Positions 7,209 to 34,505 of a stretch of DNA of 34,505 nucleotides are shown here, piece after piece; position 1 is the stretch's first letter; every line of letters begins with the position of its first letter. This stretch comes from a virus. The notes beneath the pieces were generated by a model. The model was not told the DNA's origin and ran no database searches. It saw only the letters and a program-made list of their open reading frames with translations. A program made the translations under genes and the position numbers. The stretch spans positions 1 through 34,505 of IMG/VR virus record IMGVR_UViG_3300036985_002165. The stretch is one strand, 5' to 3'.

Positions 7209-8033
7209 TTAACCCCCTAAACCAGGTTGATAGCCCCAAGATACTTGCGATGAAGGCGAACCGCCTGGATATGCACCCCCACCACCACCACCACCACCAC
7301 CGCCACCAAAATAACTGCCTAATGAGCCAATACCACCTCCACCAAATAAGCTTCCTAATGACCCTACTGCACTAGCAGCTCCAGTCCAAGGTGCAGCTGC
7401 TCCAGCAGCGTTAGCAGCGCCTAATGCTTGATAAGCTGGAGCCATTGCATTAGCCGCGCCTACACCTATTTGACCTAAGCCTAATGCAGAAGTAGACCCT
7501 AATTTGGCAGGTTCTAAGTACATCGTACCAATTTGTGCTTTCTGACTTAAATCTTGATTAAACGCAGTTCCATAGGCTTTTTGCGCTCGTTCCCAAGCAG
7601 ATTGATATCCTTGAGCAGCTTGACCTTGAGCATAAGTGTTCATGGCTTGGCCAGCCGCACCCGATAGCAAGCCACCTTTAGCCGCTGCGCCTTGTTGAAC
7701 GCCTTGCAATCCTTGTTGCAATTGGAATTGATAACCTGGCGTTGCTTGTAGTTCAGCTAAGTTCCTAACCATCGGTGTGTATAAAGGACTTTGTCTGTAG
7801 TCCTCCATACCATAACGCGATGTCAGGTAAGGTAAATTAGCTTCATATCCTGTAGCCCCAATTTCACCTAAATGAGTGTAAGGCTTAATGTCTTTTTGAG
7901 CATTACCGTAGACTTTCTTTGTCCATTCTAATTGCTGACGTGCAACATCCGCCATTGCACTTGAAGCAGCAGATTGACCTGCCCCCCCCATTAATCCAGA
8001 TATTGCACCTGCCGCAGCTATTCCCCAAGGCAT
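7209..8033 (-). CDS. DNA transfer protein, P22 gp7 / p32-like
   Basis: The 274-residue protein starts with a glycine/alanine-rich hydrophobic stretch (IAAAGAISGLMGGAGQSAAS), consistent with membrane insertion during DNA entry. A middle part LQATPGYQFQLQQGLQGVQQ with AAKGGLLSGAAGQAMNTYAQ resembles what I recall of phage proteins named DNA transfer protein p32. The C-terminal third is glycine-rich, including 11 consecutive glycines encoded by a GGT-type repeat at 7275-7307. It is the first of three ejection-type genes and follows the sulfotransferase-like gene. The role inferred is to form part of the channel that carries phage DNA across the envelope. Confidence 0.8.
   Translation of the reverse strand: MPWGIAAAGAISGLMGGAGQSAASSAMADVARQQLEWTKKVYGNAQKDIKPYTHLGEIGATGYEANLPYLTSRYGMEDYRQSPLYTPMVRNLAELQATPGYQFQLQQGLQGVQQGAAAKGGLLSGAAGQAMNTYAQGQAAQGYQSAWERAQKAYGTAFNQDLSQKAQIGTMYLEPAKLGSTSALGLGQIGVGAANAMAPAYQALGAANAAGAAAPWTGAASAVGSLGSLFGGGGIGSLGSYFGGGGGGGGGGGAYPGGSPSSQVSWGYQPGLGG
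7275..7307 (-). repeat. trinucleotide repeat coding for 11 glycines
   Basis: On the coding strand this is almost pure GGT (one GGC and one GGG) giving eleven glycines in the C-terminal region of the DNA transfer protein. Such tracts change length by slippage in units of one residue without breaking the frame. Confidence 0.85.
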
Positions 8034-23010: not shown

Positions 23011-24546
23011 TTAAGCGCCCATCCAAGAAGAAGTGCTTCCCCCAGATGAATTATAAGATCGATTTCCTCCTTCCCTATGCTCTCGCTGTTCCCTATGGGC
23101 TACCGGAAACGCAAAAGTAACCGCTAATGCGTCCGCTGCATCAGGTGAGGCTAAACCCCTAGACCGCATTTCTTTCTTACCTTCAAGAAAGATAGTCCCT
23201 GAAGAATTAGGCTTCTTCATAGGCCCTATTAAATCAGATTTCAATTGCCTATCCTCCTTAATACTGGCAGTTTTTAACCAATCCCTCATTGCGCCCCACA
23301 TCTCTGCGCGTTTGTTGCCCCACATAATAGCATTAGTCGCCTTCCAACCAAAATTCACACCTCTTACCTTATACCGTTGTTCAACTAAACGATCAAGAAT
23401 ACCATAGCCTAATCCACCTTCATCGATCACCGTCAAGGCAGGGCGATACTGTTCAATTGCATCAATCACCCGTCCAACAATCGTCATGGTATCTTCACCG
23501 GAGTACCGTTTAATCGCTAATAAGTCACGCCCCTGTCTGACAATAATCACTGTTGAGTCAGCCCCACCTCGTGCAGGATCGACACCAATAACAATAGGCG
23601 CAGTTGTATCCTTATATAATGGGCGTTGAAACGCATCTTCAATGAGGTCGGGCGATATGAACTGATCTTCACCTGCGGTGGGAAATTCACCGTACACCTC
23701 AACCCGTGCTTGGGAAGAATCTTCGCCATACTCAGCAATAATCTGTTCATAAACCTGTTTATCCGTATCTTCAACCGTTCTCGCGTCCACCATACGGCTT
23801 TTCCAGAACGCTCGTTTGCCGTGAAAGCACTCAAAAAAATACCCTTCATTTCGTCTAGGGTTGCTGAAAGCAAACCAATACCGATCAAGGATATTCTCGG
23901 TAAAGAAACCAGCTCCTACCGACCATATCTCATTAGGAATACCTGACGCTTCATCAAAGATTAACATCATTCCGTCATGGTTGTGAACCCCTGCATAACT
24001 GTCAGGGTTCTCAGCGCTCCATAACTTACCTTCAGCGCCCCAATATCGAGTACCTTTCTTCAGCTGCATTTCCACCAAGTTAGTCAGCCATGTAGCTGGG
24101 GTTATCTTAGTAGCAGACAGTTCAAACCAATGCGTGTTAATTGACATGGCGTACCATCGTGACAGTTCACCCCATGTGACAGACTTCAATTGGCTTTCCG
24201 AGTTAGCTGACACGATCACCGTTGAGCCTACCCGTGTGGTCAACATCCACAATATTAACCACGACACCAATGCGGACTTACCAATACCACGTCCTGAGGA
24301 GACAGCAGAACGTAGAGTTGACATATCTACTTGGCCTTTATTCTCCTTAATATGATCGGCAATATCCCTTAGCACTTCCCGTTGCCATTTTCTTGGCCCG
24401 TGAAAGTGTTCTAATGGTGTGTTCTTCTTCCCCCAAGGAAACACGAACAACACAAACGCTTCAGGATCATCCGCTATCTTGGGCGACCATAACTCCACCA
24501 TCAACGTCTGTTCTTCGTCTGGACGATATATTGGTTGTTGAGCCAT
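23011..24546 (-). CDS. terminase large subunit
   Basis: The 511-residue packaging motor has an ATPase with Walker A SSGRGIGKS at 83-91 and Walker B LIFDEA at 195-200. The nuclease domain carries GVDPARGGADSTVI (D323), LTVIDEGGLGYGI (D375) and ASPDAADALAV (D469, D472), the acidic residues expected for the RNase H-like endonuclease that cuts concatemers. It uses ATP to pump DNA through the portal. The N-terminus overlaps the small subunit by 80 bases in another frame; GAGG upstream of the ATG 24546 supports this start, and no good later start keeps the full domain. The C-terminus is basic and serine-rich. Confidence 0.95.
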   Translation of the reverse strand: MAQQPIYRPDEEQTLMVELWSPKIADDPEAFVLFVFPWGKKNTPLEHFHGPRKWQREVLRDIADHIKENKGQVDMSTLRSAVSSGRGIGKSALVSWLILWMLTTRVGSTVIVSANSESQLKSVTWGELSRWYAMSINTHWFELSATKITPATWLTNLVEMQLKKGTRYWGAEGKLWSAENPDSYAGVHNHDGMMLIFDEASGIPNEIWSVGAGFFTENILDRYWFAFSNPRRNEGYFFECFHGKRAFWKSRMVDARTVEDTDKQVYEQIIAEYGEDSSQARVEVYGEFPTAGEDQFISPDLIEDAFQRPLYKDTTAPIVIGVDPARGGADSTVIIVRQGRDLLAIKRYSGEDTMTIVGRVIDAIEQYRPALTVIDEGGLGYGILDRLVEQRYKVRGVNFGWKATNAIMWGNKRAEMWGAMRDWLKTASIKEDRQLKSDLIGPMKKPNSSGTIFLEGKKEMRSRGLASPDAADALAVTFAFPVAHREQREHREGGNRSYNSSGGSTSSWMGA

Positions 24547-24958
24547 TGTGAGTTTGTTCCTCTAGTTGAATCGGTTTGATTCCTTCAATGACTCGACTAC
24601 GCGCTTCATCTAAGGCAGATTGTATATTAATAGTTTCAATTGACATGGATATTTCCTGCTTGGCAGTCCATCCATGAACGTGTTGCAGGATTGACAGCGC
24701 CGCTTTTGAATCACCGTTTCTAGCAGCTTCTCTTAACTGAGTTGACGCTTCCATTTCTCCATCAGCTGCACCTTTCAACGCTGCCATTTCTGCAACAGGA
24801 TCGAGTTGGCATAACTGTCGATATTCGGAAGGTAACATTCCTGCGGCTAAGGCAAGCTTGTCACCTTTCAACCCTAAAGCAGCAGCATCATATATTTGTT
24901 GTAAGCGCCATTCGGTGGCTTGCACTTCTCTTGGCGTAAATGGGATTGATATCATCAT
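24467..24958 (-). CDS. terminase small subunit
   Basis: The 163-residue protein should recognise the packaging site and recruit the large subunit. The N-terminal half is helical with a possible helix-turn-helix (LKGDKLALAAGMLPSEYRQL, about 30-49). A middle part, DGEMEASTQLREAARNGDSK and AALSILQHVHGWTAK, is typical of phage small terminases with an oligomerising helix. The end is basic then acidic (SSRRRTDVDGGV). A strong site AAAGGAGG (24963-24970) precedes the double ATG at 24958. It is the first gene of the late block and lies next to the repeat array at 25070-25189, its possible binding site. Confidence 0.82.
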   Translation of the reverse strand: MMISIPFTPREVQATEWRLQQIYDAAALGLKGDKLALAAGMLPSEYRQLCQLDPVAEMAALKGAADGEMEASTQLREAARNGDSKAALSILQHVHGWTAKQEISMSIETINIQSALDEARSRVIEGIKPIQLEEQTHNGSTTNISSRRRTDVDGGVMVAQDSG

Positions 24959-24970: not shown

Positions 24971-25069
24971 CAAAATTATATTTAACATCATTTACCTATG
25001 GTAGTAAAGTTTTTTACAGATAATACTAAATTTTAAAAAAATTTTTAGGGGGGTAGCTTTTCAATTTTT

Positions 25070-25189
25070 AAAAAAAAATTTCTTGTGGTTCAGTTTCCAT
25101 TCTAAAAAAAATTTACTGTGGAGGCAGTTTTAAAAATAAAAAAAATTTACTGCGGTTCAGTTTCCAATTAAAAAAAAAATTTCTCGTGG
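25070..25189. repeat. four phased A-tract repeats, candidate packaging (pac/cosB-like) site
   Basis: Four copies of A(8-10)TTT followed by a seven-base box are present, with boxes CTTGTGG (25082), ACTGTGG (25115), ACTGCGG (25149) and CTCGTGG (25183). The TTT ends fall at 25081, 25114, 25148 and 25182, spacings of 33, 34 and 34 bases. Copies one and three also share TTCAGTTTCCA after the box. A weaker A-tract (25035-25046) ending in AGGGGGG precedes them. The array lies just upstream of the small terminase gene, where packaging sites often are. A role in initiation of replication is the main alternative. Confidence 0.6.
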
Positions 25190-25237
25190 GGGGTGTACAT
25201 GGGCGACGGACGGTTCAAAATCCCCCTATCACCCCCC
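25188..25237. promoter_or_regulatory. GC-rich inverted repeat around GGGCGACGG
   Basis: GGGGGGTG (25188-25195) and CACCCCCC (25230-25237) are inverted repeats 34 bases apart in an otherwise AT-rich stretch. Between them is GGGCGACGGACGG at 25201-25213. This is slightly like the cohesive-end core of lambda (GGGCGGCGACC), but the match is short. Confidence 0.4.
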
Positions 25238-25437
25238 CATCGACCAGGCACGTTACGTTATAACATATCATTTTAAGTTAACCTATTGATTTATATACGG
25301 TTTACGGTTTAAGTATTGAATCGATTGGCTATTTGAGTACGATGGCAGGACTTGAATTGGATTGTAAGTTATTGTTATCATTAATGTTTTACATCGGTGC
25401 TTTATAAAAGGTAACAAAAAAAGACACGATTTGCATT
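25238..25437. other. gene-free spacer
   Basis: I see no supported gene. It holds two adjacent short direct repeats (ACGTTACGTT near 25250 and TACGGTTTACGGTTTA near 25295). The minus strand carries a weak extended -10 (TGTTATAAC, about 25257-25265) that could start a terminase transcript. Confidence 0.4.
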
Positions 25438-25749
25438 TGTGTGTATTGTGCATAACTGTTTTTATAGTTGTACACATTGTACACATAAGGGCTATTTGCG
25501 TTCCTTGCATAGCTGCTTAATTTGGCATTTGTGTACAATGTGCATAATGTTCACACCTGTTTTTAGTCGGTAGCTTGTAACATTTTTTCCCGTAATATTA
25601 TAACTATTATATTATATTATTTTATAAACCTTATAATATCTAATATATACACATTATACACACAGCTCTTAAAGCCCCGCTAATAAAGGGAATGTTGTGG
25701 GCAAAATTGCTTGAAATTCTTATACACAACGATGCCCACATTATCCACA
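25438..25749. promoter_or_regulatory. predicted replication origin with DnaA boxes
   Basis: Five perfect matches to the DnaA box TTATNCACA occur. Two are on the minus strand (25447-25455 and 25539-25547) and three on the plus strand (25654-25662, 25720-25728, 25741-25749). Related 9-mers are placed directly beside several of them: TTGTACACA twice in tandem at 25468-25485, TGTGTACAA at 25530-25538 touching the second box, and TGTGTGTAT at 25438-25446 touching the first. The boxes of opposite orientation flank an AT-only core. This is the layout of a DnaA-dependent bacterial-type origin. It could also belong to a phage initiator using a similar motif. Confidence 0.75.
25593..25650. promoter_or_regulatory. 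AT-rich core, candidate DNA unwinding element
   Basis: About 58 bases almost free of G and C, made of TATTATA-type steps, lie between the minus-strand and plus-strand DnaA boxes. Such a stretch is expected where an origin first melts. Confidence 0.6.
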
Positions 25750-26361: not shown

Positions 26362-26922
26362 ATGAAATTACAAGACTTAAGACTAGCATTAACCGCAGTG
26401 CCTAAAAAAACTGATATTCGATATTATCTTAATGGTGTAAAGATTACAAAAGACACTGTAAGCGCGTCAAATGGTCATATCTTATGCCATATCAACACAT
26501 ATCAGAACGAACTACCAAACAATATTGAAAATGATTATTTAATCGTTCCAGTAGAAACGATCAAAGCGCTGCTTAAAAAGATGGGCAGTAAACATGAAAA
26601 TAAGGAAGTATCTATATTTTTAAACAATGGCCGATACGAGCTGCAATGTTTGAATGAAGTTGAAGTGTTTACGCCTATCGATGGCAAGTATCCATCTTTC
26701 GACAAAATATTGACTCCAGTGAAAGCAAATAATCATGATGAAAATTTAAATAAAATATTGCATCAGTTTGATTGGTCATACGTCGCGCTGGCTAATGATG
26801 CAATATGTAAATATTACGGTAACACCACACCGAAACGTTTATACAGTTGTAATGAGTGCGGTTATTTTATGCCGTCATTAGATAATGACATTATCTATGT
26901 AATTATGCCGTGCAGGAACTAA
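26362..26922 (+). CDS. shortened DnaN-like sliding clamp (domains II-III only)
   Basis: The 186-residue protein resembles the bacterial beta clamp from its second domain onward. DIRYYLNGVKI at 18-28 parallels DVRYYLNGMLF of E. coli DnaN domain II. SASNGHIL (34-41) parallels the ATDGHRLA segment, YLIVPVETIKALLKKM (59-74) parallels SVIVPRKGVIELMRML, and PIDGKYPSFDKILTP (105-119) parallels LVDGRFPDYRRVLPK. The last residues YVIMPCRN match the DnaN end YVVMPMRL, part of the partner-binding pocket. Domain I is absent and domain III is short (about 65 residues against about 120). It could be a phage clamp working as a trimer, or a decoy for host clamp partners. It is in the early block beside the predicted origin. 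Confidence 0.75.
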   Translation: MKLQDLRLALTAVPKKTDIRYYLNGVKITKDTVSASNGHILCHINTYQNELPNNIENDYLIVPVETIKALLKKMGSKHENKEVSIFLNNGRYELQCLNEVEVFTPIDGKYPSFDKILTPVKANNHDENLNKILHQFDWSYVALANDAICKYYGNTTPKRLYSCNECGYFMPSLDNDIIYVIMPCRN

Positions 26923-26926
26923 GACA

Positions 26927-27091
26927 ATGACGGATAAAAAACCAGGTAGACCCTCAATTGCAAAAGAAGATAAAAACATCTTGCAAACTTTTAGTTTAAA
27001 ACAGTGGCAAGTAAGGCGGTTAAAAGAAACAAAAAACAAAAGTAAATTGATACAATTACTTTTAACCAAACATTTTACCAGTCTACCGTAA
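26927..27091 (+). CDS. small ribbon-helix-helix-like DNA-binding protein, 54 aa
   Basis: The 54-residue frame encodes MTDKKPGRPSIAKEDKNILQ, then TFSLKQWQVRRLKETKNKSK and LIQLLLTKHFTSLP. A basic GRP-containing N-terminus (AT-hook-like KKPGRPS) precedes a predicted short strand (LQTFSL) and two helices with the NKSxLIQLLL pattern seen in the second helix of Arc/MetJ-type proteins. It starts four bases after the clamp-like stop and ends 24 bases before a terminator. A role as early regulator, perhaps acting on one of the inverted repeats near the promoters, is possible but inferred. Confidence 0.6.
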   Translation: MTDKKPGRPSIAKEDKNILQTFSLKQWQVRRLKETKNKSKLIQLLLTKHFTSLP

Positions 27092-27446: not shown

Positions 27447-29744
27447 TCAATTCACAAGTGACAATTTTCTGTTTAGTTCTGGCTCAACTTTTTTCCTAAG
27501 TTCTGTCTTACTCAGCGCATTAATGGCTTCGTCATCAGGAGCTATGTAAATATGTTTCACGCTGGGGAATTCACGCGACTTAAGGCGACCCATATCTTTC
27601 CAGCCTGCTTCTTTAAGAGCATGAAGAAGTGCTGCTTGAGGAACCTTGATGTTACCTGGTGCAGTATTAACCAACCGATCACAGAGCGCATGGAATGGCG
27701 ATGCTATCACTCCCGATGCAAACTCACCGACACGGTTACGCATCAGCTCAACAAGATAAGACTCAGCGCTCGACATGCCTTGCTCAACTAGGTTTATTTT
27801 GAACTCGGTCATCATCGGTGCAGCTGCTGGATTGAACGTGCTAACGTCACGAGCATACAACCAACTGGCAATTGCTTCATAGCCTCCACCTGTCTTAAAC
27901 CACTCCCACATTGATTGCGCTTCTGCGTAATCCATACGAGGTGCATGTGACCAAACGCAGAACCATCGTCTGTCTTGTGTTTCTAATTGAATTGGCACAG
28001 GATCGTTTGAATAAGCCAACACAAACAAACGGTTCATCATGTCGTAAGGGTGTAATCCTTTACGGTTGATAGACAACGTTTCTGGAGGTGCAGCAATGAT
28101 AGGTTTTAATTTGTTAGCAAGCGCTCGTCTTTCTCGTGCATCGGTTTCTTTTAACTCGTTAAGGACTAAGATTTCACACTCTAATGCGTAACCAAACTGG
28201 CTGTTCATCGAATCATTATCAATGTACCCTCGGTTCTTAAAGTGAGGGCCACACACTGCCCAGATGAAAGGCGCATACATCGTATCCTTACCAGCTCCTT
28301 GGTCACCACCGTGCAGAATGGCGTGATTGATCTTGATCTTAGGGTTCTGGACTTTATATGCCATGACATTAAAAATATGCTCCAATTCAGCTTCATTAGG
28401 AACTAAGTTCTTGCAATGGTCAAGCCAGCGAGTGACGTTACCAGCCTTACCCGTCACATCAGGACGTGCATCACGCCAACGATTGCCGTACATGTCACCA
28501 TCCAAAGCGGTCAACATGGTTTCCCCAGCAGCGTAAGTGATCCCCACCAAAGCATGTGCGCCCATCGCCTGTCTGTTCTCGTCATAGCAAACTGAGGCTT
28601 CAATCTTACGCCCAGTATGAATGGACTTGCACTCAAGATGCCGGAACAAGGCGTTGAAAGTAGATCGGCTGACTTCACGTCTAGCAACCAAATCAAAATA
28701 AGATTCATCGGCTTGAATGTAAGCGAATCTGCTAAACCAATCTTTCTTTTCCAATCGTCCTAACTCCTTACGTTCGACTTCAGCAATAGCACTAGCCGCA
28801 TCTTGGCTAAACATATCAGTAGGCTCAAGTTTAGCTAACGTGTCAACCATAACTGAGGCTAATAATTCCTCACGAATTCCATGTGAATGTTTCGGGCCAC
28901 CTTCTGCCTGCACCCATTCAAGGTAGGTCTTACTGTCAAGATGTTGGCAAGACTCGTGAAAGCACATGAAGGCACGATTAACAGGATGATACCTTGCCAT
29001 TGGATTGCCATCAGAGTGCGCTGTTGCGTTGATGCAAGTCACGCCCACCCAGCCTTCACCATTAGCACCCTCGATGACATCACCACGCCCAACAAGCCAT
29101 GTTAAGACATCATCTTTGCCATCGTCAATCAAATCAACACGTTTAACTGTTGCGGTGTCTGCTTCACACGGAGTAACACCCAACGCTTTACATATCTGAG
29201 GTAAGGTGAACTCTAATTCAGGATTGAATTTAACCAGTACGGACTTAAAATTATCTCGACCAGGCTTAAGATTGACGCTATCAGGAAGGCGAAAATTACG
29301 AACGGCATTAATAGCGCCCCCATCAGTATAACCTGCATCAGCAATCGCTTTAATAGCTGCACTGAAATCCCCTTTTGTTGGTTGATCGTCAAGACCGAAA
29401 GTATACCCGTATTGGTAGTTACCTGGTGAAGTTTCCATAATCCATGTTGGAATCAGATCAGGCATTTTTGATTTAGTTCCAACATCATCCAACACGAGGA
29501 ACGCAACCAACTCACAATTGCTTGCAGAAGCACTCGGTTTGCCATCTTTAAAACGCTTAATGATAAAACTTGCCGTGTTACAGTACCAAGCACCTTTACG
29601 GTCATATTTAGTGGGAAGGTAAGCAGGCCAAGTACATTTTTGTGCGCCATCAGCGTGAAAAAGATCGGCTTTAGGAACTTGCTTAACAAATAGACAGGTT
29701 TCCCCTTCTGGCGCGATATTTATGATATACTCTATAAAGTTCAT
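27447..29744 (-). CDS. primase-helicase: RepB-type PrimPol plus SF3 helicase
   Basis: The 765-residue protein combines a primase and a helicase. Residues about 1-190 resemble RepB/archaeo-eukaryotic primases: LVLDDVG (D86, D87) as a metal site, METSPGNYQYGYTF, and NAVRNFRLPDSVNLK. Residues 237-266 form a probable zinc site (C237, H243, C261, C266, with MCFHESC). The C-terminal half is an SF3 / virulence-E-like helicase with Walker A HGGDQGAGKDT (about 478-488) and Walker B ILVLNELKE (525-533). It would open the DNA and lay primers for the phage polymerase. The gene begins one base after the polymerase stop and ends before a terminator. Confidence 0.87.
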   Translation of the reverse strand: MNFIEYIINIAPEGETCLFVKQVPKADLFHADGAQKCTWPAYLPTKYDRKGAWYCNTASFIIKRFKDGKPSASASNCELVAFLVLDDVGTKSKMPDLIPTWIMETSPGNYQYGYTFGLDDQPTKGDFSAAIKAIADAGYTDGGAINAVRNFRLPDSVNLKPGRDNFKSVLVKFNPELEFTLPQICKALGVTPCEADTATVKRVDLIDDGKDDVLTWLVGRGDVIEGANGEGWVGVTCINATAHSDGNPMARYHPVNRAFMCFHESCQHLDSKTYLEWVQAEGGPKHSHGIREELLASVMVDTLAKLEPTDMFSQDAASAIAEVERKELGRLEKKDWFSRFAYIQADESYFDLVARREVSRSTFNALFRHLECKSIHTGRKIEASVCYDENRQAMGAHALVGITYAAGETMLTALDGDMYGNRWRDARPDVTGKAGNVTRWLDHCKNLVPNEAELEHIFNVMAYKVQNPKIKINHAILHGGDQGAGKDTMYAPFIWAVCGPHFKNRGYIDNDSMNSQFGYALECEILVLNELKETDARERRALANKLKPIIAAPPETLSINRKGLHPYDMMNRLFVLAYSNDPVPIQLETQDRRWFCVWSHAPRMDYAEAQSMWEWFKTGGGYEAIASWLYARDVSTFNPAAAPMMTEFKINLVEQGMSSAESYLVELMRNRVGEFASGVIASPFHALCDRLVNTAPGNIKVPQAALLHALKEAGWKDMGRLKSREFPSVKHIYIAPDDEAINALSKTELRKKVEPELNRKLSLVN

Positions 29745-34302: not shown

Positions 34303-34505
34303 AAATACCAACCTTATGGAGTTATCCAATGCCCGACAAAAAGATGGTTGGGGGTAATCATTACTTATTACCGATCCAACCCGTTACTTACATCCATGCT
34401 AACAAGCTACCGTTTATGGAAGGTAACATAATAAAGTACATTACGCGCCATCGAAGCAAGAATGGCGCAGAAGATATAAAGAAAATCATACACTACTGTG
34501 AACTA
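34299..34505 (+). CDS. DUF3310 protein, cut by the window end
   Basis: From the ATG at 34329 the frame reads MPDKKMVGGNHYLLPIQPVT and later EGNIIKYITRHRSKNGAEDI with KKIIHYCEL, the DUF3310 pattern: GGxHY, IQPxxYI, LPFxEGNxIKYxxRxxxKxGxEDxKK. The family is sometimes annotated nucleotide-kinase-like and has no firm function. A GTG at 34299 overlapping the previous TGA would add ten residues; the ATG at 34329 has GGAG eight bases upstream and agrees better with family starts. The gene runs off the window. Its last residues may be those encoded at 2-76. Confidence 0.85.
   Translation, partial: MKIPTLWSYPMPDKKMVGGNHYLLPIQPVTYIHANKLPFMEGNIIKYITRHRSKNGAEDIKKIIHYCEL

Follow-up and report, generated by a model that had tools for sequence, protein, structure and literature searches.

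A putative iteron origin in an uncultured small podovirus whose repeat type tracks the wing of the phage primase-helicase

The 34.5-kb record of an uncultured small podovirus, a freshwater phage, analysed here over its whole length (the window, 34,505 nt), carries a cluster of short repeats in the intergenic region between the terminase small subunit gene (terS; 24467–24958, minus strand) and the early genes. Is this locus an origin fired by host DnaA, as an earlier note had proposed, or one that the phage reads with its own protein? One reading frame appears to be split between 34404–34505 and 1–74, an indication that the map is circular and that the record lacks a few bases. The window holds six exact copies of TTATNCACA, five clustered at 25438–25749 and the sixth far away at 7776(-), with 2.46 expected across its whole length. 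A first-order model of the local 401 bases gave a mean of 0.08 copies, and the clustering exceeds chance because none of 20,000 simulated local sequences contained at least five. Two boxes on one strand and three on the other had been described, and all five were found, at 25447(-), 25539(-), 25654(+), 25720(+) and 25741(+). The 9-mers said to be packed edge to edge with them were likewise seen, at 25438–25455, 25468–25485, 25530–25547 and 25645–25662. Besides the five boxes there are seven further related 9-mers, and four units of the array are tandem 18-bp pairs. The core reported as 58 bases of AT only holds C's: it is 90–91% AT, with AT-only runs of at most 24 bases. The elements of the locus are:

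25438–25749, no strand: putative replication origin, two arrays with together about twelve iterons of 9 bp on either side of an AT-rich core, a layout common to relatives
25438–25455, minus: tandem iteron pair, TTATGCACA (25447–25455) and ATACACACA (25438–25446)
25468–25485, plus: tandem iteron pair, two copies of TTGTACACA
25530–25547, minus: tandem iteron pair, TTATGCACA (25539–25547) and TTGTACACA (25530–25538)
25547–25555, plus: weak iteron ATGTTCACA
25595–25652, no strand: AT-rich core, presumed unwinding region, about 90% AT with no AT-only run above 24
25645–25662, plus: tandem iteron pair, ATATACACA and TTATACACA
25696–25704, minus: weak iteron TTGCCCACA
25720–25728, plus: iteron TTATACACA
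25741–25749, plus: iteron TTATCCACA

Hundreds of related contigs were retrieved using TerL and the primase-helicase as queries; a megablast search against cultured phages gave no match. Phages with 99–100% identical terminases share the layout of 9-base tandem repeats and an AT-rich core between the primase-helicase stop and terS, and their repeats differ (TTGCATACA, NTGATACAT, TTGTCCACA, TTGCCTACA, TGACTACA and others). The structure is therefore conserved and the repeated word is not. The box cluster is gone from L002 and L094 (TerL 100%) and from L006 and L088 (TerL 99%); L002 and L006 carry other tandem 9-mers at the site. Iterons were called with a de novo motif finder, blind to the protein. 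Among the 82 loci with clear iterons, neighbours on the same strand were most commonly spaced 9 bp apart (272 cases), followed by 8 bp (81 cases), and 66 had a low-GC core within the array. The motif finder went astray in places (L085, and L028, L152 and L155 with their GC-rich satellites), and in L195, L197, L201, L250, L255 and others it picked a second repeat family, AGTTAGTG. Because of these wrong calls, the second family was masked and weak motifs were excluded. Repeats of this second family, CACTAACTT/AAGTTAGTG, lie near the origin in L195, L197, L201, L250, L255, L268, L270 and others; they are not the iteron, since they are common to loci with different wings. Phage DSL-LC05, with a terminase 74% identical, has a different primase and its own GACCCACTGGGT-type repeats.

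The array and AT-rich region lie about 1.8 kb downstream of the gene for the presumed initiator, with small genes between. The proteins that bear on the locus are:

24467–24958, minus: terS, flanking the origin; iteron type not tracked
26362–26922, plus: beta-clamp-like/phrog_3007 protein, adjoining the origin; presence or absence unrelated to iteron class
26927–27091, plus: GRPS-type small protein, 54 aa, a possible DNA binder; type independent of iteron class
27447–29744, minus: primase-helicase, 765 aa, presumed initiator, with putative RepB/AEP-type primase, D5-like (DUF5906) helicase and C-terminal winged helix
27543–27599, minus: wing beta-hairpin, residues 716–734, KDMGRLKSREFPSVKHIYI
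27558–27581, minus: wing loop, residues 722–729, specificity positions

A Superfamily 3/D5-like helicase domain was identified from DUF5906, present in 47/47 aligned primase-helicases, from a GGDQGAGKD motif and from the fold match to NrS-1 and SaPI5. RepB_primase was detected in 35 of the 47 members (best E 2.3e-5), the window protein lying under the Pfam cut-off at E 0.0074. AF2 models gave, with moderate confidence (C-terminal model pLDDT 74.8), a C-terminal winged helix of three helices and a beta-hairpin wing, whose strands span residues 716–721 and 730–734 on either side of loop 722–729; helix 703–712, which precedes the wing, is conserved. A fold search of the C-terminal part only against the PDB returned weak winged-helix matches, none with E <= 0.001. 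The full-length model matched the NrS-1 CTR and the SaPI5 primase-helicase (PDB 7ola). NrS-1 polymerase is the closest solved homologue, with a profile E of 5.6e-12 over residues 461–664, and was found by fold too.

The data showed that iteron type tracks the C-terminal winged-helix domain of the primase-helicase. Column scans were run apart for two clades, A with 16 loci (identity 84% or more) and B with 20. Iteron class was most strongly associated with columns 721, 722, 727 and 728 in clade A and with the equivalents of 722, 727 and 728 in clade B. In the scan of close pairs (413 pairs, 323 variable columns), r reached 0.79 at 722, 0.76 at 727, 0.55 at 728 and 0.40 at 721, with an SD of 0.125 over all primase-helicase columns; the maxima for the control proteins were 0.23 (terS), 0.13 (terL), 0.21 (polA) and 0.16 (duf2815). 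Simple linkage fails to explain the peak at the wing, because primase-helicase residues nearer the origin scored lower. A Mantel-type test that controlled for the remainder of the protein gave wing similarity a partial correlation of 0.49, a value reached in 0/999 permutations, the permutation removing phylogeny incompletely. A column scan of distant pairs was set aside as confounded by phylogeny, its top columns being scattered (385, 119, 118, 132, then 724). The wings and the iterons found with them were:

KSREFPSV (window): TTRTACACA
KSTDFPSQ: NTGATACAT
ASREFTTQ: TTGC[AT]TACA
KSREYD[SA]: TTGTCCACA
YSREY[TA]T: TTGCCTACA
M[CS]R[ED]YTA: ATGACTACA
AS[AST][ED]YM[NS]: TGNCAATA
HSREFPT: TTGCCCACA
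ASGDYP[ST]: ATGACCCAAA
KTxDNGN: ATGACCCAT

By an exploratory rule, spotted after the fact, T[GA]NNNACA iterons go with R724: they occurred in 40/57 loci with this residue versus 0/54 without it (16/27 versus 0/33 counting unique wings). Taken together, these sequence comparisons suggest a natural protein–DNA recognition code between iteron and wing loop. A literature search of open-licence papers found no report of a wing code in phage primase-helicases.

Natural swaps bear on the same positions. The primase-helicases of L097 and L098 differ at 17/765 residues, and past residue 573 only by M718N, I721L, A722K, R724T, E725D, T727P and T728S; these seven differences in the last 190 residues all fall in the wing (718–728), and the proteins are identical past 728. 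Ten of the 11 codons 718–728 differ, three of them silently, and codons 713–717 and 729–739 are identical. The iterons of the two phages are entirely different (TTGCATACA in L097, NTGATACAT in L098). The L088 and L091 proteins have 27 residue differences, none of them within 716–734, and their iterons are the same. Positions 716 and 729 are disfavoured as specificity positions, since L093 has 716N and 729Q as in other classes and keeps 721L, 722K, 727P, 728S and the window's iteron class. The L183 and L065 proteins are just 57% identical over residues 1–699, yet have KSREYD[SA] and TTGTCCACA in common. L107, about 2.3–2.9 kb past its primase-helicase stop, has TTATACACA iterons and, in small number, TTGCATACA repeats that belong to another class, and its wing is the window's; this origin is possibly caught between iteron types.

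Hold-out loci were fetched after the wing–iteron pairing had been set, and their iterons were scored blind to the protein. For wings with K722 and D727, the predicted TTGTCCACA (at least five TGTCCACA) was found in 5/7 new loci and in 7/10 overall, compared with a maximum of two TGTCCACA copies in the 136 other loci. The K722+D727 loci L069, L250 and L255 are exceptions without a TTGTCCACA array, and the repeats paired with wing ASREYQT were of two types, TGCCAACA and TGACC[CT]ACA. Within the hold-out clade alone (pairs at least 70% identical), 722 ranked 3rd and 727 5th, so that the wing was not dominant. From these ranks and the exceptions, the code holds strongly in two clades and in part in a third.

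Having weighed these comparisons, we give a probability of roughly 0.84 to an iteron origin to which the phage's own primase-helicase would bind, the repeat sequence being set by a wing that can be swapped. The segment 25438–25749 is thus likely the phage's own replication origin. The sequences show the layout, its conserved place, the turnover of repeat type and the covariation of that type with the wing, and from them we infer that the protein binds the iterons directly, melts the core and loads the helicase, and that the locus acts as an origin; winged-helix binding, helicase loading at the core and priming are drawn by analogy with SaPI Rep and Cch2. The C-terminal winged helix would bind the iterons of 9 bp, a good number of which are arranged in 18-bp tandem pairs, and this binding may assemble helicase rings on either side of the AT-rich core, which would then be melted before priming begins. 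Loop 722–729, flanked by 718 and 721, would determine the 9-mer that is read. The window's wing KSREFPSV would read TTRTACACA-type repeats, which coincidentally spell a DnaA box.

Host DnaA binding the TTATNCACA boxes and firing an oriC-like phage origin would account for the resemblance to bacterial oriC, namely five exact consensus boxes adjoining an AT-rich stretch, and the relative MW202483 codes for a DnaA domain-IV protein. The AT-rich unwinding element is, however, not specific to DnaA origins, and unlike oriC boxes those of the window are unconserved in relatives, where the iteron type tracks a phage protein. Across 148 distinct related loci, counted from primase-helicase to terminase, TTATNCACA was absent from the region in 126 and present at least twice in just 11, 9 of which belong to the window's own iteron class; sister phages with 99–100% identical TerL bear other iterons at the same place. 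The window's TTGTACACA and TTGCCCACA copies agree with the iteron class of the phage, not with the DnaA consensus. Cumulative GC skew makes no turn at 25438–25749, being about zero over 25–27 kb and negative on either side. Because relatives carry other iterons at this site and the skew does not turn, we rejected a DnaA-dependent origin, which appears extremely improbable. Of what the earlier note proposed, the iteron-type origin at 25438–25749 is well supported. Recruitment of host DnaA is not supported: the skew makes no turn and close relatives have lost the boxes, two outcomes that the note itself counted as refuting, and repeat type tracks the phage wing.

A different role for the repeats, as template-specific priming sites of the primase domain rather than double-stranded origin sites, would fit the closest solved relative by sequence and fold, NrS-1 PrimPol (PDB 6k9c, 6lrb), which needs an 8-nt sequence in the template for priming (PMC7102993). 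This is very unlikely, as the iterons covary with the C-terminal wing and not with the primase domain, and about twelve copies in both orientations surround the AT-rich core, compared with two copies of the priming site in the NrS-1 genome; the part of the NrS-1 source consulted describes no C-terminal recognition code. It also seems highly unlikely that another phage factor (a repressor, terS or the small GRPS protein) binds the iterons for regulation or packaging, the wing being merely linked. The iteron locus does adjoin terS and divergent early genes, and about 1.8 kb separates it from the wing. Against such a factor, terS and terL show no comparable column association, residues nearer the origin associate less than the wing, L097 and L098 are identical past residue 728, and the wing–iteron pairing recurs in distant lineages. 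As candidates for binding the iterons, terS, the clamp-like protein and the GRPS protein of 54 aa were rejected, none of them tracking iteron class.

P4 alpha, the protein of a satellite, joins a primase and a helicase to a C-terminal winged helix that binds the origin at iterons. Its likeness to the phage protein, a primase-helicase with putative winged-helix iteron binding, lies in this general plan and implies no family membership; the sequence and fold matches listed from the PDB included no P4 entry. SaPI Rep and Cch2 use their C-terminal domain to recognise iterons that lie immediately after the gene (PMC7581432). SaPI Rep (including SaPI5) and SCCmec Cch2 resemble the phage protein in their D5-like helicase and in a C-terminal domain that, in the phage protein, would likewise recognise iterons, with a primase that is fused (SaPI5) or separate, and the SaPI5 primase-helicase is a structural match of the full phage model. 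In contrast to these, the phage protein comes from small podoviruses that have a family A polymerase of their own, and its 9-bp, often tandem iterons change sequence from one near-identical phage to another as the wing loop is swapped; SaPI iterons are directly adjacent to the gene, whereas the phage's are displaced from it. In geminivirus Rep, a short variable stretch, the iteron-related domain, correlates with iterons across related viruses (PMC10653810); this is, however, an unrelated rolling-circle initiator of plant ssDNA viruses, and the stretch is N-terminal, not a winged-helix wing. Replicons of Vibrio cholerae PLE RepA exchange origin and initiator binding domain together, as may be the case here, and cognate pairs alone replicate (PMC8263062); RepA differs in belonging to the RepA_N family, in its semi-palindromic iterons of about 30 bp and in serving a satellite element.

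The odds are about even that the code is modular, with about 11 wing codons and the origin exchanged as a cassette, near-identical phages thereby acquiring replication specificities that exclude one another. The benefit of a switch could lie in origin incompatibility when phages co-infect, or in evading parasites or defences that target the origin. A misleading DnaA-origin call would give way to a self-recognising phage origin with a specificity readable from its sequence, and its rapid, wing-linked turnover is a more interesting point than the DnaA question. Natural near-identical pairs such as L097/L098 open direct experiments on how a winged-helix initiator changes specificity and why origin identity changes. 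The code may also offer a route to origin prediction across a large uncultured phage group, and the locus cautions that DnaA-box scans can misname phage iterons.

Several minor observations concern the neighbouring genes and repeats. A small DnaA domain-IV protein is coded by L083 (MW202483.1; 31423–31719, Bac_DnaA_C E 1.1e-17), L130 (3202–3432) and L051 (5014–5226), and none was seen in the window. The clamp-like protein at 26362–26922 matched DNA_pol3_beta_2 at E 1.8e-5, just under the Pfam cut-off, is labelled a RusA-like resolvase in PHROGs and is patchy among relatives. Upstream of terS, positions 25036–25250 of the window hold imperfect A-tract repeats of about 30 bp (AAAAAAATTTCTTGTGGTTCAGTTTCC and variants), followed by a GTACATGGGCGACGGACGGTTCAAAATCCCCC element that is near-identical in L002 and L006; these are possibly packaging or late-promoter signals.
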